Virus record (IMG/VR): IMGVR_UViG_3300006803_000082
Coordinates: 1 to 26,798 of that record
Origin: a virus
Length of the DNA: 26,798 bases
Reading direction: 5' to 3' (one strand)
Positions within the stretch are counted from its first letter, which is position 1. Every line of letters starts with the position of its first letter. This document shows, one piece after another, positions 2,371-25,167 of the stretch. Position numbers and translations under genes: made by a program. Below the pieces are notes generated by a model. That model was given only the letters and a program-made list of their open reading frames with translations, made no database searches and was not told where the DNA came from.

Positions 2371-2781
2371 TTATATTATTTTAATCATTTCGTGAGTGTA
2401 AGTATCACCCTCTTTAAAACCTACTTTTTTATATACATCAATTAAAGGTTTGTTTTTAATCAAAGCATATATATATTTTTTTCCTAACGCTTCTGCTTCA
2501 TCACTTATAGTTTTAACTAATAACTCTAAAGCTTCTTTTCTTTTTTGCCTGTCTTTATATTTTAAATTAGAAATGATCCAATCGCACCATGCTGCTTTTG
2601 AGTTAGTTACATACATAAAGCCTGCACATATTGGAACCTTGCCATCATAAACCATAAAGCCACCCATACCATCATCAGGCAAAAAATCTTTTGAAGGCGG
2701 TGTCCATCTCCAATCTCTCCACCAATTACATAGAATATTTTCATAGTCGTCTGCATGTAATGGTAAGATATTTAATTTCAT
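2371..2781 (-). CDS. GNAT-family N-acetyltransferase-like protein
   Basis: A 136-residue protein with the outline of a GNAT fold. Residues about 38-60 give a beta hairpin (GGFMVYDGKVPICAGFMYV). Residues 64-74 form the central strand (AWCDWIISNLKY). A basic turn and long helix follow (about 76-100, with KDRQKRKEA where the acetyl-CoA pyrophosphate loop would sit). The C-terminus has the classic GNAT ending: strand IYALI, NKPLIDVYKKVGF at 110-122, then a last strand THEMIKII. The loop deviates from the usual Q/R-x-x-G-x-G/A pattern, so activity is uncertain. Short GNAT-like proteins do occur among tail genes of marine phages; the substrate is unknown. It may modify a virion or host protein, or serve as a structural fold. 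A TATCTTTG promoter-like motif lies only 5 bases before its ATG. Confidence 0.6.
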   Translation of the reverse strand: MKLNILPLHADDYENILCNWWRDWRWTPPSKDFLPDDGMGGFMVYDGKVPICAGFMYVTNSKAAWCDWIISNLKYKDRQKRKEALELLVKTISDEAEALGKKYIYALIKNKPLIDVYKKVGFKEGDTYTHEMIKII

Positions 2782-2786
2782 TTACG

Positions 2787-2794
2787 CAAAGATA
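2787..2794 (-). promoter_or_regulatory. Bacteroidetes-type -7 element (TATCTTTG) before GNAT-like gene
   Basis: The minus strand reads TATCTTTG in the 20-base gap between the 268-residue gene and the GNAT-like gene, matching the TAnnTTTG consensus. I see no TTG at the -33 position. The motif ends 5 bases before the ATG, so if used it would give a leaderless or nearly leaderless transcript. Confidence 0.4.
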
Positions 2795-11227: not shown

Positions 11228-12181
11228 TTAACTTGTTTCTTGTATTTCGTTACCCTCTTCAGTTTTCCCAAAATTATATACTTCAGCATCTCTAATTTCT
11301 ATACCTACATACTGACATATCTTTGCAATTAATGTTGGCTCATCAGACTGAGGTAATTCAAACTCTTGAAAGTCAGGCTGTGTAGGGTCAAATATTGGCT
11401 CACCAACTCCTAAGTTTTGCCAAGTCCATTTTGGTATCTTAGGATATCTTACATACTGAGCTTGTATATCTCCTACGTTTAATATAGTAGTAGGATATAC
11501 TGTTATTATATTACCATCTAAAACATATGCTGGATACGTTTTAGTAGGAGCAGTTAAAGCAGAGTTTGTTAAATAAAATATTTTATTTTGATTAACCCTT
11601 TCTACTTCTCTAATATTTGTATTAGAATAAATGACATAATTCTGACCACCAACTAAAAATATATCTGCACTTAAAGTTACTACAGTACTACTAAGAACCC
11701 CTGTAATATAAGCCTGCTGTAATGTTGTAGTGTTAACCACTAAAGAACCAATCTTAGGTGTTGGTGATGATGCTGGTATTATCGTCCATCCTACAGCATT
11801 TATATCTATTAATTGATTTGCTACTACTGCAGTATTTGTTCCTTTAAATAAAGGGACTGAATAATAAAATAATTTATTTATTAGATAATAATCATTAGGT
11901 AAGTTATAAGTATTAGAATTGTTCTGAGCTAAAAAAACTTGATTAGAAAAACTATCCATCACCTCTACTAATCCTTTTATTACATCAGCATAACCTTCAC
12001 CTGACATTCTGCTATTTTGTTTGTTGATCCAATTATTATAACTATAAAAGTAATCTTCAAACATATCTACCTGCGCTTGTTTAGCGTACAAATTAAAATC
12101 TTGAGGAGATATATATCCGTAGTTATTTTTATTTGCTATAGCTAATACAGTATTCCTTACTTCATTTATTGATGCTGCCAT
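11228..12181 (-). CDS. Putative connector / neck protein with inserted beta module
   Basis: A 317-residue protein. The N-terminal helices (MAASINEVRNTVLAIANKNN; DFNLYAKQAQVDMFEDYFY) and the motif NTYNLPNDYYLINKLFYYS (about 90-108) suggest a head-completion or ring protein. Residues about 124-186 form a separate beta module (PKIGSLVVNTTTLQQAYITG then VVTLSADIFLVGGQNYVIYS) that resembles modules in neighbouring structural proteins. After it, VERVNQNKIFYLTNS and YPAYVLDGNIITVYP continue the main fold, ending with a helical EPTLIAKICQYVGIEIRD and a Gln/Glu tail. The gene is preceded by a terminator and a TATCTTTG motif 18 bases before its ATG, so it probably heads its own unit with the 306-residue connector and the nozzle gene. 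No function is proven by motif. Confidence 0.5.
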   Translation of the reverse strand: MAASINEVRNTVLAIANKNNYGYISPQDFNLYAKQAQVDMFEDYFYSYNNWINKQNSRMSGEGYADVIKGLVEVMDSFSNQVFLAQNNSNTYNLPNDYYLINKLFYYSVPLFKGTNTAVVANQLIDINAVGWTIIPASSPTPKIGSLVVNTTTLQQAYITGVLSSTVVTLSADIFLVGGQNYVIYSNTNIREVERVNQNKIFYLTNSALTAPTKTYPAYVLDGNIITVYPTTILNVGDIQAQYVRYPKIPKWTWQNLGVGEPIFDPTQPDFQEFELPQSDEPTLIAKICQYVGIEIRDAEVYNFGKTEEGNEIQETS

Positions 12182-12199
12182 ATTATATAAACATTTCTA

Positions 12200-12207
12200 C
12201 AAAGATA
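12200..12207 (-). promoter_or_regulatory. Bacteroidetes-type -7 element (TATCTTTG) for connector/nozzle unit
   Basis: The minus strand reads TATCTTTG directly after the U-tract of the preceding terminator and 18 bases before the ATG at 12181. It matches TAnnTTTG. The -33 position falls inside the terminator stem and shows no TTG. Confidence 0.6.
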
Positions 12208-12208
12208 A

Positions 12209-12245
12209 CAAAAAAAAAGAGGCCCACTTTTTTTGTAGGCCTCTC
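12209..12245 (-). terminator. Rho-independent terminator after the 259-residue structural gene
   Basis: On the minus strand a 7-bp stem AGAGGCC/GGCCTCT (12244-12238 with 12224-12218) encloses an A-rich loop and is followed by nine T residues (12218-12210). It lies 19 bases beyond the stop at 12264. Confidence 0.85.
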
Positions 12246-12263
12246 TTAATATATAATAATTAA

Positions 12264-13043
12264 TTATGCTAAAACTACAGAAGTAGCAAAAAGAACTGAA
12301 GGTCTTGAAGCCAATACAGGGGCAACTACCATTGGCATTTCAGCTATAACATCTTTCCAGTCTGACTCTAAAGTTTCAATCATCACTTTTTCAAAAGCTT
12401 TTTGCCAGCTATAATTAGCTTGTGATGCTGATATAGTAATAGTTAAAATATCATTACCTGCTGTTTTAGTTTTGTAAGTTAATACAACAGGTGTAGTACC
12501 TGCTCCACCTGCTGGTGTGGGAGTATTAGTAACTATATTATCTAAATTAATTAATCTACCACCATAACCACTTTGAGATATAACAACCGCAGTATCAGAT
12601 CCGTTATCATCAAAAATAAAGTTATCCATAGTTAAAGAAGTATCAGAATTAACTTTTGTTACTTTAGCCATTCTATCTGATGAAGTATTAATTACTAAGT
12701 CTCCTACATTTACATCAGTTAAAAAAGTTCCTGTTGCAACTAAAAAAGTATATGCGGCAGCATATGGCCATATTTTAAAAGCAGCACCTGAAACCTCTAA
12801 AGCAGTATTACCTGTTCCAGATATACTTAAAACAGTATCACTATCTACAGCTGTTACTGTAGAAATTGTCCATGTAGTAGTGTCTAAAACTTGATCTCCT
12901 ACATTTACAGCAGCATTAAAGCCACCTGTAGCATAAGTTAGTTTGCCCGTAGCAGTACCAGATGTGGTACCTGCTATTGCTGGGGAAGCCATGTCCGCTG
13001 TTACACTGTAAAGCGGGAGAGGCACGTTAATAAACTTTCCCAT
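12264..13043 (-). CDS. Putative capsid decoration / structural protein with two tandem beta modules
   Basis: I chose ATG 13043 (259 residues, MGKFINVPLPLYS). The frame extends upstream to 13109, but that start would overlap the preceding gene by 64 bases, while 13043 lies two bases after its stop and gives an N-terminus matching the neighbouring 92-residue protein (MEKFLTIPV). Two tandem modules follow: residues about 34-91 (VNVGDQVLDTTTW, STVTAVDSDTVLSISG) and about 97-156 (VNVGDLVINTS, AKVTKVNSDTSLTMDNFIF). The C-terminal part (about 206-259, ASQANYSWQKAFEKVMIETL) again matches the small neighbour. It is Ala/Thr/Val-rich with no Cys except none of functional note, and no membrane segment. 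A terminator follows. Its own transcription unit beside the capsid gene suggests an abundant virion component, perhaps a decoration protein; this is inference. Confidence 0.6.
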   Translation of the reverse strand: MGKFINVPLPLYSVTADMASPAIAGTTSGTATGKLTYATGGFNAAVNVGDQVLDTTTWTISTVTAVDSDTVLSISGTGNTALEVSGAAFKIWPYAAAYTFLVATGTFLTDVNVGDLVINTSSDRMAKVTKVNSDTSLTMDNFIFDDNGSDTAVVISQSGYGGRLINLDNIVTNTPTPAGGAGTTPVVLTYKTKTAGNDILTITISASQANYSWQKAFEKVMIETLESDWKDVIAEMPMVVAPVLASRPSVLFATSVVLA

Positions 13044-13045
13044 AA

Positions 13046-13324
13046 CTATGCTATAACTATTCCTGAAACTGCTTGTGGTGGTATAGCCATGTATGTTACA
13101 CGAGTCCAAGAAGTTTGTAAAGCAGCAACCATTGAATCAGCAATAAATTTTCTCATACTGAAAGCTACTTGAGCAGCTGCAGTAAGTGTTGCAGTGTTAC
13201 CATTTAAATAAGTAATAACTGTAGTAGTTGCTGTACCTGAAGCAGCTGTTACTGACAGGACTTCATTTACGTTTAAAAGAACGTCCCCAGAGCCTGTTAC
13301 TGGGATTGTTAAGAATTTTTCCAT
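13046..13324 (-). CDS. Small structural protein, possible capsid decoration protein
   Basis: A 92-residue protein with an N-terminal beta part (MEKFLTIPVTGSGDVLLNVNEVL, VITYLNGNTATLTA) and a C-terminal helix and strand (FSMRKFIADSMVAALQTSW, then YMAIPPQAVSGIVIA). The M-x-KF-x-x-(I/V)P start and the Ser-(M/W)-x-K-x-(F)...L-x-(S/T)-x-W helix also occur in the next gene, so the two look like paralogues, the second enlarged by two inserted modules. The gene sits behind a terminator and a TATCTTTG motif, 32 bases before the ATG, and shares a unit only with its larger relative. A role as an abundant capsid surface protein is plausible from position and size but is not shown by any motif. Confidence 0.55.
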   Translation of the reverse strand: MEKFLTIPVTGSGDVLLNVNEVLSVTAASGTATTTVITYLNGNTATLTAAAQVAFSMRKFIADSMVAALQTSWTRVTYMAIPPQAVSGIVIA

Positions 13325-13356
13325 TTTATAAAAGTTTTTAATGGGTTAATAAAGTA

Positions 13357-13364
13357 CAAAGATA
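13357..13364 (-). promoter_or_regulatory. Bacteroidetes-type -7 element (TATCTTTG) for decoration-like genes
   Basis: TATCTTTG on the minus strand lies 3 bases after the U-tract of the upstream terminator and 32 bases before the ATG at 13324. It matches TAnnTTTG; no clear -33 TTG is visible because that position falls in the terminator. Confidence 0.6.
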
Positions 13365-13366
13365 GA

Positions 13367-13393
13367 TAAAAAAAAACACCCTTATTAGGGTGC
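13367..13393 (-). terminator. Rho-independent terminator after the 251-residue gene
   Basis: Minus strand: a perfect CACCCT/AGGGTG 6-bp stem (13392-13387 with 13382-13377) and a four-base loop, followed by nine T residues (13376-13368). It lies 25 bases beyond the stop codon at 13418. Confidence 0.85.
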
Positions 13394-13417
13394 TCTTTTA
13401 AATTATGTTAATAAAGA

Positions 13418-14173
13418 TTATTTCTTTTTCTTTAACATTTGTTTTAATAACTTGTAAGTCTCCAGTCCTTCATCAGTTTGTAAATAAGAAGATACAATAT
13501 CATTTGGTTGTTCTCCATAAGGAACTGTTAACATTTTAGTTTTATTTTTAGCTAAGTTAAAATAAACATCTCTTTGGTTGTTTCTTAAAGTTAATAGGTT
13601 TTTACTAAAAAACTGAACAACATCATCATACATTTGTAGTGCAGGATCATTTAAAATATCAATAAAGTCTTCAGGATGATTTCTTGAAAAGACAAGGATA
13701 TCTCTTTTTAATTCTGCGGTACTTAACTTATCTGCACCAGAACCTAAAAGAACACGTGCAACCGTTTCAAGCATTGCAATATCTAAATCTCTTGCTAACA
13801 GTTGAGCATCTAAAATTAATTCTTCAATTTCTAATTCTTCAGCCGCATCTTTTGCTTCATCTATTTCATCGAATATCATTCCGTTTCCAGGATGTAAAGA
13901 TAAAAAGTGTTGAAGTACTTGGTTGGTTCTATCTACGGTTAGGAAGCCATCTTCAAAAACAATAGGCTCCATAATAGCATTACCGTCTTGCTCTTCCTCA
14001 AAAGGGCTCTTTTGGTTTCTTGCATAACGAAGAGGTTTGTTTACTCCTGACTCTTCATCAAAATAAAGTAATGGGGATCTTTTGTTGTGGTGTGAATTTA
14101 ACATGAAGCACAATGGTGCTACATCTCTCTTAAGTTTATACTGCTTAGTAACAGTGGTTTTTGGTTTTTTCAT
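13418..14173 (-). CDS. Conserved head-region protein of unknown function
   Basis: A 251-residue, acidic and largely helical protein. The N-terminal third is mixed: YKLKRDVAPLCFMLNSHHNK, RSPLLYFDEESGVNKPLRY and an RNQKSPFEEEQDG segment (about 52-64) that looks well constrained. The middle (about 105-140) is a Glu/Ala/Leu helix, followed by TAELKRDILVFSRNHPEDFIDIL (153-175). The C-terminal part (about 205-230) has NKTKMLTVPYGEQPNDIVSSYL and the protein ends in a Lys run. It lacks a signal peptide, membrane helix or catalytic signature. It stands alone between two terminators, directly after the capsid gene, which suggests a virion or head-assembly part needed in its own amount. I recall similar unnamed proteins beside capsid genes of marine phages; no function is assigned. 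Confidence 0.65.
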   Translation of the reverse strand: MKKPKTTVTKQYKLKRDVAPLCFMLNSHHNKRSPLLYFDEESGVNKPLRYARNQKSPFEEEQDGNAIMEPIVFEDGFLTVDRTNQVLQHFLSLHPGNGMIFDEIDEAKDAAEELEIEELILDAQLLARDLDIAMLETVARVLLGSGADKLSTAELKRDILVFSRNHPEDFIDILNDPALQMYDDVVQFFSKNLLTLRNNQRDVYFNLAKNKTKMLTVPYGEQPNDIVSSYLQTDEGLETYKLLKQMLKKKK

Positions 14174-14189
14174 TTTATTGTAATTTAAT

Positions 14190-14197
14190 TAAAGTTA
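14190..14197 (-). promoter_or_regulatory. Degenerate -7-like element (TAACTTTA)
   Basis: The minus strand reads TAACTTTA, overlapping the end of the post-capsid U-tract and 16 bases before the ATG at 14173. It differs from TAnnTTTG in the last base, so it is a weak candidate supported mainly by its placement, which repeats that of the two later terminator-promoter pairs. Confidence 0.25.
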
Positions 14198-14228
14198 AAA
14201 AAAAGGGGAGGAGGTTAATCCTCCCCTA
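14196..14228 (-). terminator. Strong Rho-independent terminator after the major capsid gene
   Basis: Minus strand: a perfect 9-bp stem AGGGGAGGA/TCCTCCCCT (14227-14219 with 14212-14204) and a six-base loop, followed by T residues (the A-run 14197-14203 on the plus strand). It lies 16 bases past the capsid stop at 14244 and is the most GC-rich hairpin seen in the window. Confidence 0.9.
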
Positions 14229-14243
14229 AATTAGTGTTACTTA

Positions 14244-15683
14244 TTAATCTCTAAATAAGAAGAAGTTGTTTGCACCTAAAGTACATACAGCTCTTTCAGA
14301 TAAGAAGTTAACTGTCATTGCATCAAGATCAGAAGTTCTTGCGCCACCAGCTGAACCAGTGATCCAAGTTTTGTAACGTCTGTCTTCAGTCTCAGAAGCT
14401 CTGTAACGAACATGTAAGAATGGTCTCTTAGCGTTCTTACCTAAGATTTGGTCATATACAGTTGTAGAACCAGCTGGAACCATAAGTCCATTGATTGCTC
14501 CACCTGTTAAACCACCTCTCATAGTAGGATCGTTTAAGTATTTCCAGTCTGACTTGTAGAAGTCATAACCTCTTCTGAATCCTGTGAATCCTAAGTTAAG
14601 AGCCATTTCTTCGTCATTGTCAAATAAACCATATGAAGTACCACCAGCTCCGTAAGAGTTTTGAGCAGCTAACATATCGTCAATATCAAATGAGAATTGT
14701 CTATTACAGAAAATAACATTTTCCTCGATAGCGCCTTGCTTGTCAAGTCTTTGGATTACTGAATCGAAACCTGCAAGAGCAACTGGGTTACCACCACTCC
14801 ATACATTTCCTCTTGTATTTACTACATGGAAAACTCCTTCAGAACCTTTGTTTCCTACTGGAGCTGCTGCTGCTGCTGCACCAGAACCTACCGCTGCAGG
14901 AACCGCTTCAACCATTGCAGTCTCAAGATAGTCTTCAAAACGAAGTCTTGTTTCGTGCTCAGATTTTAGGTACCATAAGTATCCTGTACCACCATTCTCA
15001 GTAGAAATTTCTACCCATCCAATTTGAGCCATGTCAGAACCGCTTACCTCGTAAGTGTCTTTAATGATAATTGGAGAGTTTTCAAATATTAAGTCTTGAG
15101 CTTCTAAAGATCCTTGCATTCCTACTTGACCTTTTGCAAACTCAGAACCATAAATAAATATACTACAGTTTGTAGCTGCTGCCATTGCTTGACCACCTGC
15201 TTCATAGTAAGCTACAGTTACTGTATATGGAGCTACGTTTGAAACAGCTGTTACAATAGCTTTATTACTTAGTACAGAAGCTGCAGTCTCATCAGAAATC
15301 ATTACAGTTTGACCTACTCTGATTGCTGAAAAACCTCCTGTTGGTTGTGATGAAGCTGGAGCTGCTGGGTTAACTTGAGCTGTTGGAATAGTCCAAGTTG
15401 CTACGTTAGCCGCTGCTGCTGCTGCAGATGTACATGCTGTATACTTAGTGTGTAACCTTCCTTGCTCAGCCCATTTAATAAGGTCAGAGTTAGAAGGCAT
15501 TTCAGCACCAACCATTCTTAAGAATGATGCTACTGTTCTATTACCATATCTTTCAAATTCTTTCTCATATGTATCTGGAAGATACTGATTTAAGAAATCA
15601 AAGTTAGTAATGTAATTTGTTGCCAGGGCAACCTGTTGACTACTTGGTTGTAAGTCAAAACCTGGTGTTGCATTAATTGCCAT
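14244..15683 (-). CDS. Major capsid protein
   Basis: A 479-residue protein in the position expected for the capsid subunit: after terminase, portal and scaffold, and before a strong terminator. The helical N-terminus (ATNYITNFDFLNQYLPDTYE, 21-40; GNRTVASFLRMVGAEMP, 47-63) precedes IKWAEQGRLHTKYT. Residues about 82-179 are a Thr/Ala-rich insertion with a beta module (GGFSAIRVGQTVMISDE, ending CSIFIYG). The shell-like part resumes at SEFAKGQVGMQGSLEAQD, with IIIKDTYEVSGSDMAQIGW and a long helix SEHETRLRFEDYLETAMVE. The C-terminal region has FDSVIQRLDKQGAIEENVIF, RRGYDFYKSDWKYLND and ends in ERAVCTLGANNFFLFRD. The layout suits an HK97-fold subunit with an inserted domain. Two poly-Ala tracts (near residues 87-92 and 270-275) sit in likely loops. 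Alternative explanations are unlikely given order and length. Confidence 0.88.
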   Translation of the reverse strand: MAINATPGFDLQPSSQQVALATNYITNFDFLNQYLPDTYEKEFERYGNRTVASFLRMVGAEMPSNSDLIKWAEQGRLHTKYTACTSAAAAAANVATWTIPTAQVNPAAPASSQPTGGFSAIRVGQTVMISDETAASVLSNKAIVTAVSNVAPYTVTVAYYEAGGQAMAAATNCSIFIYGSEFAKGQVGMQGSLEAQDLIFENSPIIIKDTYEVSGSDMAQIGWVEISTENGGTGYLWYLKSEHETRLRFEDYLETAMVEAVPAAVGSGAAAAAAPVGNKGSEGVFHVVNTRGNVWSGGNPVALAGFDSVIQRLDKQGAIEENVIFCNRQFSFDIDDMLAAQNSYGAGGTSYGLFDNDEEMALNLGFTGFRRGYDFYKSDWKYLNDPTMRGGLTGGAINGLMVPAGSTTVYDQILGKNAKRPFLHVRYRASETEDRRYKTWITGSAGGARTSDLDAMTVNFLSERAVCTLGANNFFLFRD

Positions 15684-16826: not shown

Positions 16827-16858
16827 CAAAGTTAATACTATTTTTATAGGTTTTTCAA
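16827..16858 (-). promoter_or_regulatory. Bacteroidetes-type promoter before scaffold and capsid genes
   Basis: In the portal-scaffold gap the minus strand has TTG (16858-16856), 21 bases of A/T-rich spacer, then TAACTTTG (16834-16827), which matches the -33/-7 pattern TTG...TAnnTTTG. The ATG at 16806 is 20 bases downstream. This is the most complete promoter match in the window and would drive high expression of scaffold and capsid up to the terminator at 14204-14227. Confidence 0.65.
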
Positions 16859-23169: not shown

Positions 23170-25167
23170 TTATGGCACATTTTGTTCAAACGCCATATTT
23201 ACATCCATTAATAGTTTAGGTTTCCAAGATATAGCAGTATCTGTTCTTCTCATAGTCATAAAAACTGCATCTCCAACATTAATATTTTGATTGCCCGTAA
23301 TAGTTACCGTAGCACAATTAATAGCTGTTGCTGATACTGATATATCAGTAGAAGATATTGGTAACATAGAAGATGGAGTACACTTAGGGCCTGTTATTTT
23401 CCAGAACTCAACATTAATATCTGCATCTGCAGAAGTTGTAATTGCTAAATCAATTTGACAAATAGTCGCCATAGAAAGATATGTCTGACAACGTGTATTT
23501 GTATTTTTAAAAATTTGTCCTGCTAAAAAATCTTGCACACTATATATTGTTCCTGAAGGAATGTTAGGTAGTGGATTGTGAATAGCATTTGTTCCATAAC
23601 CAACTGCTAAATCAAGATTACTATTTAATGTGTAATATATATTATTAGTCATTGAAACTGTATTATTTATATAATACCTTTCGTTAAATATAAATCCACT
23701 TAATTGAGCAGCGCCTCCTGTTGCTGCTATTGTCATCTGTGAAGCACTATTTCTGGTAATAGTAACCCCTGTTCCCGCTGATAAAGTTACAGGGTCTGAT
23801 GTACCGTCACTTCCTGTTAATGTAATATTTGTAGTTCCAACAGGTACATCTAAGTCGTATGTAGTATTTGTTCCTGCTGCTGAAGACCAAGCTAAGGCTG
23901 TACCTGTAGAGGTAAGAACTTGTCCTGCTGTCCCAACACTTGCAACGCCATCTTGAATTACTCCTGGTATAGCTGTAGGTACGGTTAAAGAAGCTGAACC
24001 TGTTAAGGTAATAGAAGTAGTAGAAGTAGCTCCTACTGCTAAAACGTTATCTAAAGTACAACATGCTGGAGGGGTTATCCAAGACAATCCTGTTCCTGTT
24101 GATGTTAAATATTGACCAGCCGATCCTGATGATGATGACCCATCTTGTATCGTAGCAGGCTCTATAAATCCTGTTAATGTAATATTTGCATTTGCTCCTG
24201 TAGCAGAATTCCCTGCTGTCAATACTTGTTGCAATGTTTGTGCTGATGCAGATGATGTTATCCAGGAAACACCCCCAGAACCTGTTGATGATAATATCTG
24301 CCCTGCTGTCCCTGTTGTAACCCCATCATATAAGCTTCCTGACAAAGCAATAGCAGCTGTTGATGATGTAGTTCCAGTAGCGCTAAAAGTATTGTTTCCG
24401 CTAAAAGTATTTGTTCCTGCAGAAGAAATATTATTACTTGATCCAAATGTCCACGTGCTTGTACCGCTTAGTGTAACACTCTGACCAACCGATGTAGCTC
24501 CTGCTGCTAAAGTATCTTGTAGATTACAACATGATGTAGATGGTATTGTGCTACTCCATTCTACTCCTGTTCCTGCTGCATCTACTGTTAACCACTGACC
24601 AGCTGTTCCTGTACTACCTGTACTATCATTAATTTGACCTGTAGTATTAAAACTTAATTGTGTGGAATTAATATTTACTTGGCCAGTAAAAGTACTTGTG
24701 CCTGTGTTAAGTAATGTAGCAGGAGTTATTATTTGTAACTGACCTCCTGCATCTTTTATTTCTAATGTATTTCCACTAACAATAACTTTTTGAGTGGCAG
24801 TATTTCCAACAGTTAAAGAGGCATCCCAGCTACTAACTGAAGTTGAAGGACTTGGTATCCACGCTAAACCTGTTCCAGTTGAACTTAATATTTGACCCGA
24901 TGTCCCTGTACTACCTCCTGCTGTTATAGTAGTTGGCTCTACAGTACCAAAAACAATTATGTTACCTGTAAGAGTAATATTTTGTGTGGCAACATTCCCT
25001 GTATCTAAAACTGATTGTAAATCTTGAGCAACACCTCCTGCGCCTACTATATCACTTACTAAAAATGTAACTGTTTCATTATTATTATCAACATCAGTAC
25101 CTATCAGTAAATCGCTTGCTGATGGAAGTACCGTAGGGTATGCAGTAGTGTTTTCAATTTTTGCCAT
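23170..25167 (-). CDS. Tail fibre-like protein with five repeated modules
   Basis: A 665-residue Gly/Ser/Thr-rich protein. Residues 1-42 (MAKIENTTAYPTVLPSASDLLIGTD) match the start of the neighbouring 172-residue protein and probably anchor it to the virion. The shaft (about 48-430) has five repeats pairing an LQxxLxxGxxAT...ITLTG element with GTxGQxLxSTGTGLxWI. The GTxGQ elements start near residues 88, 187, 286, 348 and 412. Vicinal Cys pairs precede two LQ elements (213-214 and 369-370). A segment NTTYDLDVPVGTTNITLTGSD (434-454) resembles shafts of marine phage fibres. The C-terminal head (about 490-665) is less repetitive and contains FNERYYINNTVSMTNNIYY and QIDLAITTSADADINVEFW; it is the probable receptor-binding part. 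It starts 4 bases after the 172-residue gene. Confidence 0.75.
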   Translation of the reverse strand: MAKIENTTAYPTVLPSASDLLIGTDVDNNNETVTFLVSDIVGAGGVAQDLQSVLDTGNVATQNITLTGNIIVFGTVEPTTITAGGSTGTSGQILSSTGTGLAWIPSPSTSVSSWDASLTVGNTATQKVIVSGNTLEIKDAGGQLQIITPATLLNTGTSTFTGQVNINSTQLSFNTTGQINDSTGSTGTAGQWLTVDAAGTGVEWSSTIPSTSCCNLQDTLAAGATSVGQSVTLSGTSTWTFGSSNNISSAGTNTFSGNNTFSATGTTSSTAAIALSGSLYDGVTTGTAGQILSSTGSGGVSWITSSASAQTLQQVLTAGNSATGANANITLTGFIEPATIQDGSSSSGSAGQYLTSTGTGLSWITPPACCTLDNVLAVGATSTTSITLTGSASLTVPTAIPGVIQDGVASVGTAGQVLTSTGTALAWSSAAGTNTTYDLDVPVGTTNITLTGSDGTSDPVTLSAGTGVTITRNSASQMTIAATGGAAQLSGFIFNERYYINNTVSMTNNIYYTLNSNLDLAVGYGTNAIHNPLPNIPSGTIYSVQDFLAGQIFKNTNTRCQTYLSMATICQIDLAITTSADADINVEFWKITGPKCTPSSMLPISSTDISVSATAINCATVTITGNQNINVGDAVFMTMRRTDTAISWKPKLLMDVNMAFEQNVP

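Follow-up and report, generated by a model that had tools for sequence, protein, structure and literature searches.

Lambdoid phages carry morons, autonomous genes with their own promoter and terminator that are inserted between the genes of a phage operon. In Bacteroidota, sigma-A promoters with a TTTG at −33 and a TAnnTTTG at −7 have been described for Flavobacterium johnsoniae, F. psychrophilum and B. thetaiotaomicron. The F. johnsoniae promoters exhibit TAHHTTTG at −12 to −5, a weak −33 element and AT-rich −18 and −28 regions; these two stretches are stronger than any −33 element, and the G of the −7 element is nearly invariant (PMC6847099). The sigma-A of F. psychrophilum uses TAnnTTTG, too (PMC9723704). 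Since the −33 element is weak in F. johnsoniae itself, a missing −33 TTTG is no bar to membership in the sigma-A class. Furthermore, E. coli RNA polymerase was found to stay on the DNA after termination and to restart at nearby promoters in vitro (PMC6978380; PMC11347151), a process termed recycling termination or facilitated reinitiation.

Here we analyze a 26.8 kb virus record (IMGVR_UViG_3300006803_000082, positions 1 to 26,798; the whole stretch is called the window) whose structural genes lie on the minus strand. Two junctions, near 13.4 and 12.2 kb, are very probably fusions of an intrinsic terminator with a host sigma-A promoter, each forming a minus-strand element of about 50 bp that would insulate transcription units from one another. 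Like known Bacteroidota sigma-A promoters, these elements possess a matching −7 element (TATCTTTG or TATATTTG, with H at positions 3 and 4), an AT-rich −18 region and short leaders, but the −18 AT tract is the terminator U-tract, the −28 region is a GC-rich stem and the −33 TTTG is absent. With intrinsic (Rho-independent) terminators they share a GC-rich, covarying stem and a T6–T11 tract, while differing in the −7 element that follows 1–3 bp past the tract in a fixed register. As in lambdoid morons, extra genes with their own promoter and terminator are located between two conserved structural genes; in the phage slot, however, the exit promoter would also restart the conserved downstream gene and persists where the cassette is lacking. 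The position of a terminator directly upstream of a promoter for the cellular RNA polymerase resembles recycling termination (PMC6978380, PMC11347151), although the phage spacing is far closer than that mechanism needs.

The nearest named relatives are MW202828, Maribacter phage Panino and the Flavobacterium elemo phages, and where a host is on record for a named relative, it mostly belongs to the Flavobacteriia. Further off are Cellulophaga phage phi38:1 and Calle_1 (Pervagoviridae), which share a homologous capsid gene (39% identity), the gene order, a terminator followed by TATATTTG before the 317-aa homologue and a post-capsid terminator without TTTG, but differ by the absence of the cassette and by an interrupted T-tract (TTTTCTTTTTTCCG). 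A literature search did not find a description of the fused element in such Bacteroidota phages.

Results and discussion

Gene order of the locus

The genes referred to below are, in order of transcription:

21581–19293, minus strand: terminase gene
19296–16861, minus strand: portal gene
between portal and capsid genes, minus strand: 367-aa gene, predicted to form a unit with the capsid gene
14244–15683, minus strand: major capsid protein gene, 479 aa (phrog_13704, E = 3e-102; major capsid protein by annotation in the relative Calle_1)
13418–14173, minus strand: 251-aa gene (phrog_34748, function unknown)
13046–13324, minus strand: 92-aa gene, variable cassette gene 1 (open reading frame; homologues at 21/83 loci)
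12264–13043, minus strand: 259-aa gene, variable cassette gene 2 (open reading frame; homologues at 6/83 loci)
11228–12181, minus strand: 317-aa virion structural gene (phrog_14543)
downstream of the 317-aa gene, minus strand: 306-aa gene, then 1746-aa gene, both structural

Neither an RNA polymerase nor a sigma factor is annotated in the relative phi38:1, and no phage-own polymerase is annotated in phi38:1 or MW202828. Known RNA families yielded zero matches within the window. The 259-aa (12264–13043) and 317-aa (11228–12181) proteins, both on the minus strand, have a short stretch in common (VGDLVINTSSDRMAKVTKV..., E = 0.004), perhaps a small domain found in both a cassette and a structural protein. 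A 665-aa protein (23170–25167, minus strand) contains repeated units of the GTAGQ(I/V)L(S/T)STG type and is perhaps a fibre.

Terminator hairpins and promoter motifs

Stem-loops with long U-tracts had been predicted at three minus-strand sites, and all of them turned out to be real: each folds far better than shuffled sequences (z from −2.9 to −5.4), and a tract of eight or nine T directly follows the stem.

14204–14227, minus strand: terminator 1, 9-bp stem, −17.1 kcal/mol, T8 at 14204–14197
13368–13399, minus strand: terminator 2, hairpin 13399–13370, 13-bp stem, −15.6 kcal/mol, T9 at 13376–13368, z = −5.35
12210–12247, minus strand: terminator 3, hairpin 12247–12215, 13-bp stem with A7 loop, −20.2 kcal/mol, T9 at 12218–12210, z = −5.43

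Between 8 and 18 kb, nine terminator-like sites were seen versus 4.1 ± 1.9 in shuffles. We infer that these hairpins act as intrinsic terminators. Four motifs of the −7 type are relevant to the same region:

16827–16834, minus strand: TAACTTTG, predicted host-type promoter of the 367-aa and capsid genes, terminator absent
14190–14197, minus strand: TAACTTTA, claimed as a weak −7 element; present, unsupported as a promoter
13357–13364, minus strand: TATCTTTG, −7 element of promoter 2, predicted start at about 13352; octamer in 22/22 relatives with the 92-aa gene
12200–12207, minus strand: TATCTTTG, −7 element of promoter 3, predicted start at about 12195; in 64/65 and 77/77 relatives of two samples

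Both TATCTTTG copies are present where the original prediction had placed them and match TAHHTTTG, beginning three bases past the T9 tract at 13364–13357 and two bases past it at 12207–12200. The assignment to the Bacteroidetes TAnnTTTG type held as well, the octamer fitting the Bacteroidota sigma-A −7 element and being retained in relatives (22/22 and 64/65). Counts of TANNTTTG are uninformative without context, because the motif is no commoner than in shuffles of AT-rich DNA (33 seen across the window, 39 expected). Within the window, TATCTTTG occurs four times on the minus strand, each time in an intergenic region ahead of a gene. At the TAACTTTG site of the 367-aa gene, TAHHTTTG was found in 60/71 relatives, with the T-tract absent in 55 of these 60. 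A search for E. coli-type sigma-70 sites gave no signal (43 seen, 43.6 expected).

A second TAACTTTG (19344–19337, minus strand), conserved some 43 nt ahead of the portal start, was left uncounted as a promoter since it lies inside the terminase gene; it may be a promoter or reflect coding (INFA). At 2781–2794 (minus strand), TATCTTTG precedes the ATG of a 136-aa gene, annotated as acetyltransferase-like in a relative, by just 5 nt; the distance is 4–7 nt in 18/20 relatives, so that a leaderless or almost leaderless message is predicted. The leader behind promoter 2 (13356–13325, minus strand; TTTATTAACCCATTAAAA) is conserved across cassettes with differing proteins.

Conservation, covariation and spacing in relatives

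Two motif-blind samples were used, 80 contigs selected by capsid homology (sample 1) and 80 by homology to the 317-aa protein (sample 2). Upstream of the 317-aa homologue, sample 1 exhibited TAT(C/A)TTTG in 64/65 cases (1.2 expected from shuffling), 63 of the 64 with a T6+ tract right before it, and sample 2 exhibited the motif, the abutting tract and a hairpin of −8 kcal/mol or below in 77/77 contigs (35 distinct sequences), the relatives being non-independent observations, though down to 35–50% protein identity. Upstream of the 92-aa homologue, the octamer was present in every case (22/22) and directly followed the T-tract in 15.

As MAFFT left the hairpin stems unaligned, an anchored test was used instead. 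Among 171 distinct segments upstream of the motif, drawn from relatives and pattern hits (a few may belong to other genes), 164 form a hairpin closing at the U-tract, with 72 distinct 8-nt 3′ arms and every kind of base pair. Native hairpins reached −14.1 kcal/mol versus −6.4 kcal/mol for arm-swapped chimeras. Since a 5′ arm joined to a foreign 3′ arm thus loses about 8 kcal/mol on average, the stable GC-rich stem is selected as a structure, as indicated by the z-scores in the window and by covariation and chimeras for hairpins of the 12.2-kb type.

Spacing was equally constrained. For 154 distinct hairpin-plus-T6 terminators, 92 TAHHTTTG octamers were found within 60 nt downstream, 90 of them at 1–6 nt past the tract, while six permuted octamers averaged about one match each. 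This coupling indicates that terminator and promoter are placed as one unit rather than merely packed into a short gap; promoters without a hairpin are common in these phages, e.g., at the 367-aa and 84-aa genes.

The original prediction had the −33 position fall inside the terminator, so that stop and start share the same DNA. The position does lie within the hairpin, but a TTTG is missing there (2/59 relatives at the 317-aa gene, 0/21 at the 92-aa gene), and the run in common is the U-tract at −18. A T6+ tract was located at −29 to −13 in 58/59 relatives at the 317-aa junction, corresponding to the AT-rich −18 region; about −24 to −33 is taken up by the 3′ arm of the stem, which is GC-rich. 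The GC fraction of the −28 region is 0.42 at the fused junction, compared with 0.10 at the 367-aa gene promoter, which has no terminator attached. Because this region is AT-rich in host promoters and a GC-rich stem here, promoter strength is uncertain. Runs of A5 or more in the upstream region, including the hairpin loop, were seen in 36/59 relatives at the 317-aa junction compared to 3/54 before the post-capsid U-tract. They may represent a second common element; common descent could also account for them.

The variable cassette slot

In 22 contigs the slot is empty, with the 251-aa and 317-aa genes adjacent (64–131 nt apart) and a single TAT(C/A)TTTG in 21/22. It is filled with 0.38–2 kb of variable genes in 43 contigs, 41 of which show at least two −7 sites, in most of them one just after the 251-aa gene. 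Extra genes therefore bring their own promoter, whereas the exit promoter of the 317-aa gene is constant. In the window, the cassette is flanked on both sides by terminators 2 and 3. An insertion between genes that are adjacent in relatives, with its own promoter and terminator, is moron-like in anatomy, and terminators fused to host sigma-A promoters would insulate the slot. Insulation of a variable slot between conserved head genes is a clearer pattern than dose, although separate doses for the units are plausible.

Specificity and spread

The exact 21-mer T9GTTATCTTTGTA occurred in five stretches among 84,980 species genomes, four of which lack a convincing hairpin, versus at least 119 viral contig stretches. 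Each of the 80 viral loci with the 21-mer that were read carries homologues of window genes, and the next gene is mostly a 317-aa or 92-aa homologue. A variant pattern additionally detected the arrangement, hairpin mostly included, in contigs that lack homologues of window proteins. Among 41 Bacteroidota genomes, a tight composite gave zero matches; a looser one was present in ten of them at roughly 0.5 per Mb, with a hairpin at about 10 of 22 distinct sites. The arrangement is, as far as these patterns indicate, general in Bacteroidota and rare in hosts; near-fixed conservation refers to measurements in this phage group only. Coupling is weaker in distant relatives: in Panino, no clear hairpin accompanies TATCTTTG, and in phi46:3, TAACTTTG stands with no hairpin.

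Proposed mechanism and alternatives

Conservation, stem covariation, positional coupling and specificity argue for fused terminator–promoter elements at two junctions. Host RNA polymerase would come to a halt at the U-tract that ends an upstream unit. This T-tract would double as the AT-rich −18 region for the promoter that follows, with the −7 element TAT(C/A)TTTG beginning 1–3 bp later, and sigma-A polymerase would start a new RNA about 15 bp beyond the release point. Unit 1 would comprise the 367-aa and capsid genes, running from TAACTTTG at 16834–16827 as far as terminator 1, and read-through would supply the 251-aa gene. Unit 2 would be the variable cassette, in which the 92-aa and 259-aa genes have a promoter and a terminator of their own, and unit 3 the 317-aa, 306-aa and 1746-aa structural genes, restarted by promoter 3. 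A cassette could then be swapped in while neighbouring genes hold their own dose.

The original prediction of three terminator–promoter junctions stood for those at 13.4 and 12.2 kb. Its extension to the junction after the capsid gene, where TAACTTTA at 14190 had been proposed as a weaker −7 element, seems unlikely. In its favour, TATCTTTG follows the same terminator in two relatives, MW202828 and elemo, so this site can gain or lose a promoter, and the relaxed octamer TAHHTTTH is found after the capsid gene in 17/71 distinct relatives. However, TAACTTTA lacks the nearly invariant G, TAHHTTTG is present in only 2/71, and the conserved leader registers with the ATG of the 251-aa gene (21.3 bits over 40 nt that include the T-tract), not with the U-tract (5.9 bits over 26 nt). 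Moreover, AAATTAAATCAAATG-like leaders also follow true promoters of other genes (367-aa, 84-aa) and fit the A-rich translation context of Flavobacterium (PMC6847099). From its sequence, the conserved stretch before the 251-aa gene is best read as a translation leader, and this gene is probably expressed by read-through of terminator 1, whose hairpin is itself conserved (z < −2 in 69/71 relatives).

We consider it very unlikely that the hairpins are promoter parts or regulatory RNAs through which transcription runs. The hairpin and the −7 element are positionally inseparable at the 317-aa gene, and an A-tract loop is commoner before that promoter than after the capsid gene (36/59 versus 3/54), as would suit such a role, but each hairpin is GC-rich and then followed by 6–11 T, as in a textbook terminator. 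A hairpin of this form is also seen after the capsid gene, where a promoter is lacking, and many promoters (367-aa, 84-aa) have no hairpin. Phage RNA polymerases can read hairpin promoters, as in N4, yet the position misfits that idea. That a single leaky late message is made, with hairpins and −7 motifs as remnants of cassette shuffling that have little effect, is most improbable: cassettes clearly turn over, but near-total retention of the module, covarying stems and a 1–3 nt spacing mean active selection. A relay, in which the released polymerase is passed to the abutting promoter, is compatible with the fused element and draws on the conserved distance of about 15 bp, but we regard it as rather doubtful, since it has been demonstrated in vitro only with the E. 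coli enzyme, distances of up to about 1000 bp suffice so that tight abutment is unneeded, and insulation alone explains the anatomy. Were it to operate, which we likewise hold to be a slim prospect, polymerase would keep or regain sigma-A, and one promoter upstream of the capsid unit might tune the late chain while cassettes are freely exchanged.

For marine Bacteroidota phages of this widespread and mostly uncultured group, the fused element yields a transcription map at the sequence level, together with a rule by which late genes could stay balanced despite turnover in a slot next to the capsid gene. It is also an abundant natural system in which to ask whether promoter-adjacent termination recycles polymerase, as seen so far in vitro only, and could serve as a compact stop-and-start part of about 50 bp for Bacteroidota gene circuits.

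Post-capsid hairpins with a nearly invariant loop

In some relatives, the loop of the post-capsid terminator, GGCATACATG(T/C)AAACGTTCTC, which is absent from the window, is nearly invariant on stems that vary yet pair (L443:4630–4700, L444, L006:~4150, L015:~2480, L028:~11180 and other viral contigs). This hairpin had no match to Rfam at the gathering threshold (seven loci). All exact viral matches to the loop (22/22) lie within such a hairpin, 21 of them next to a detected capsid homologue, and the element looks like an undescribed structured RNA.
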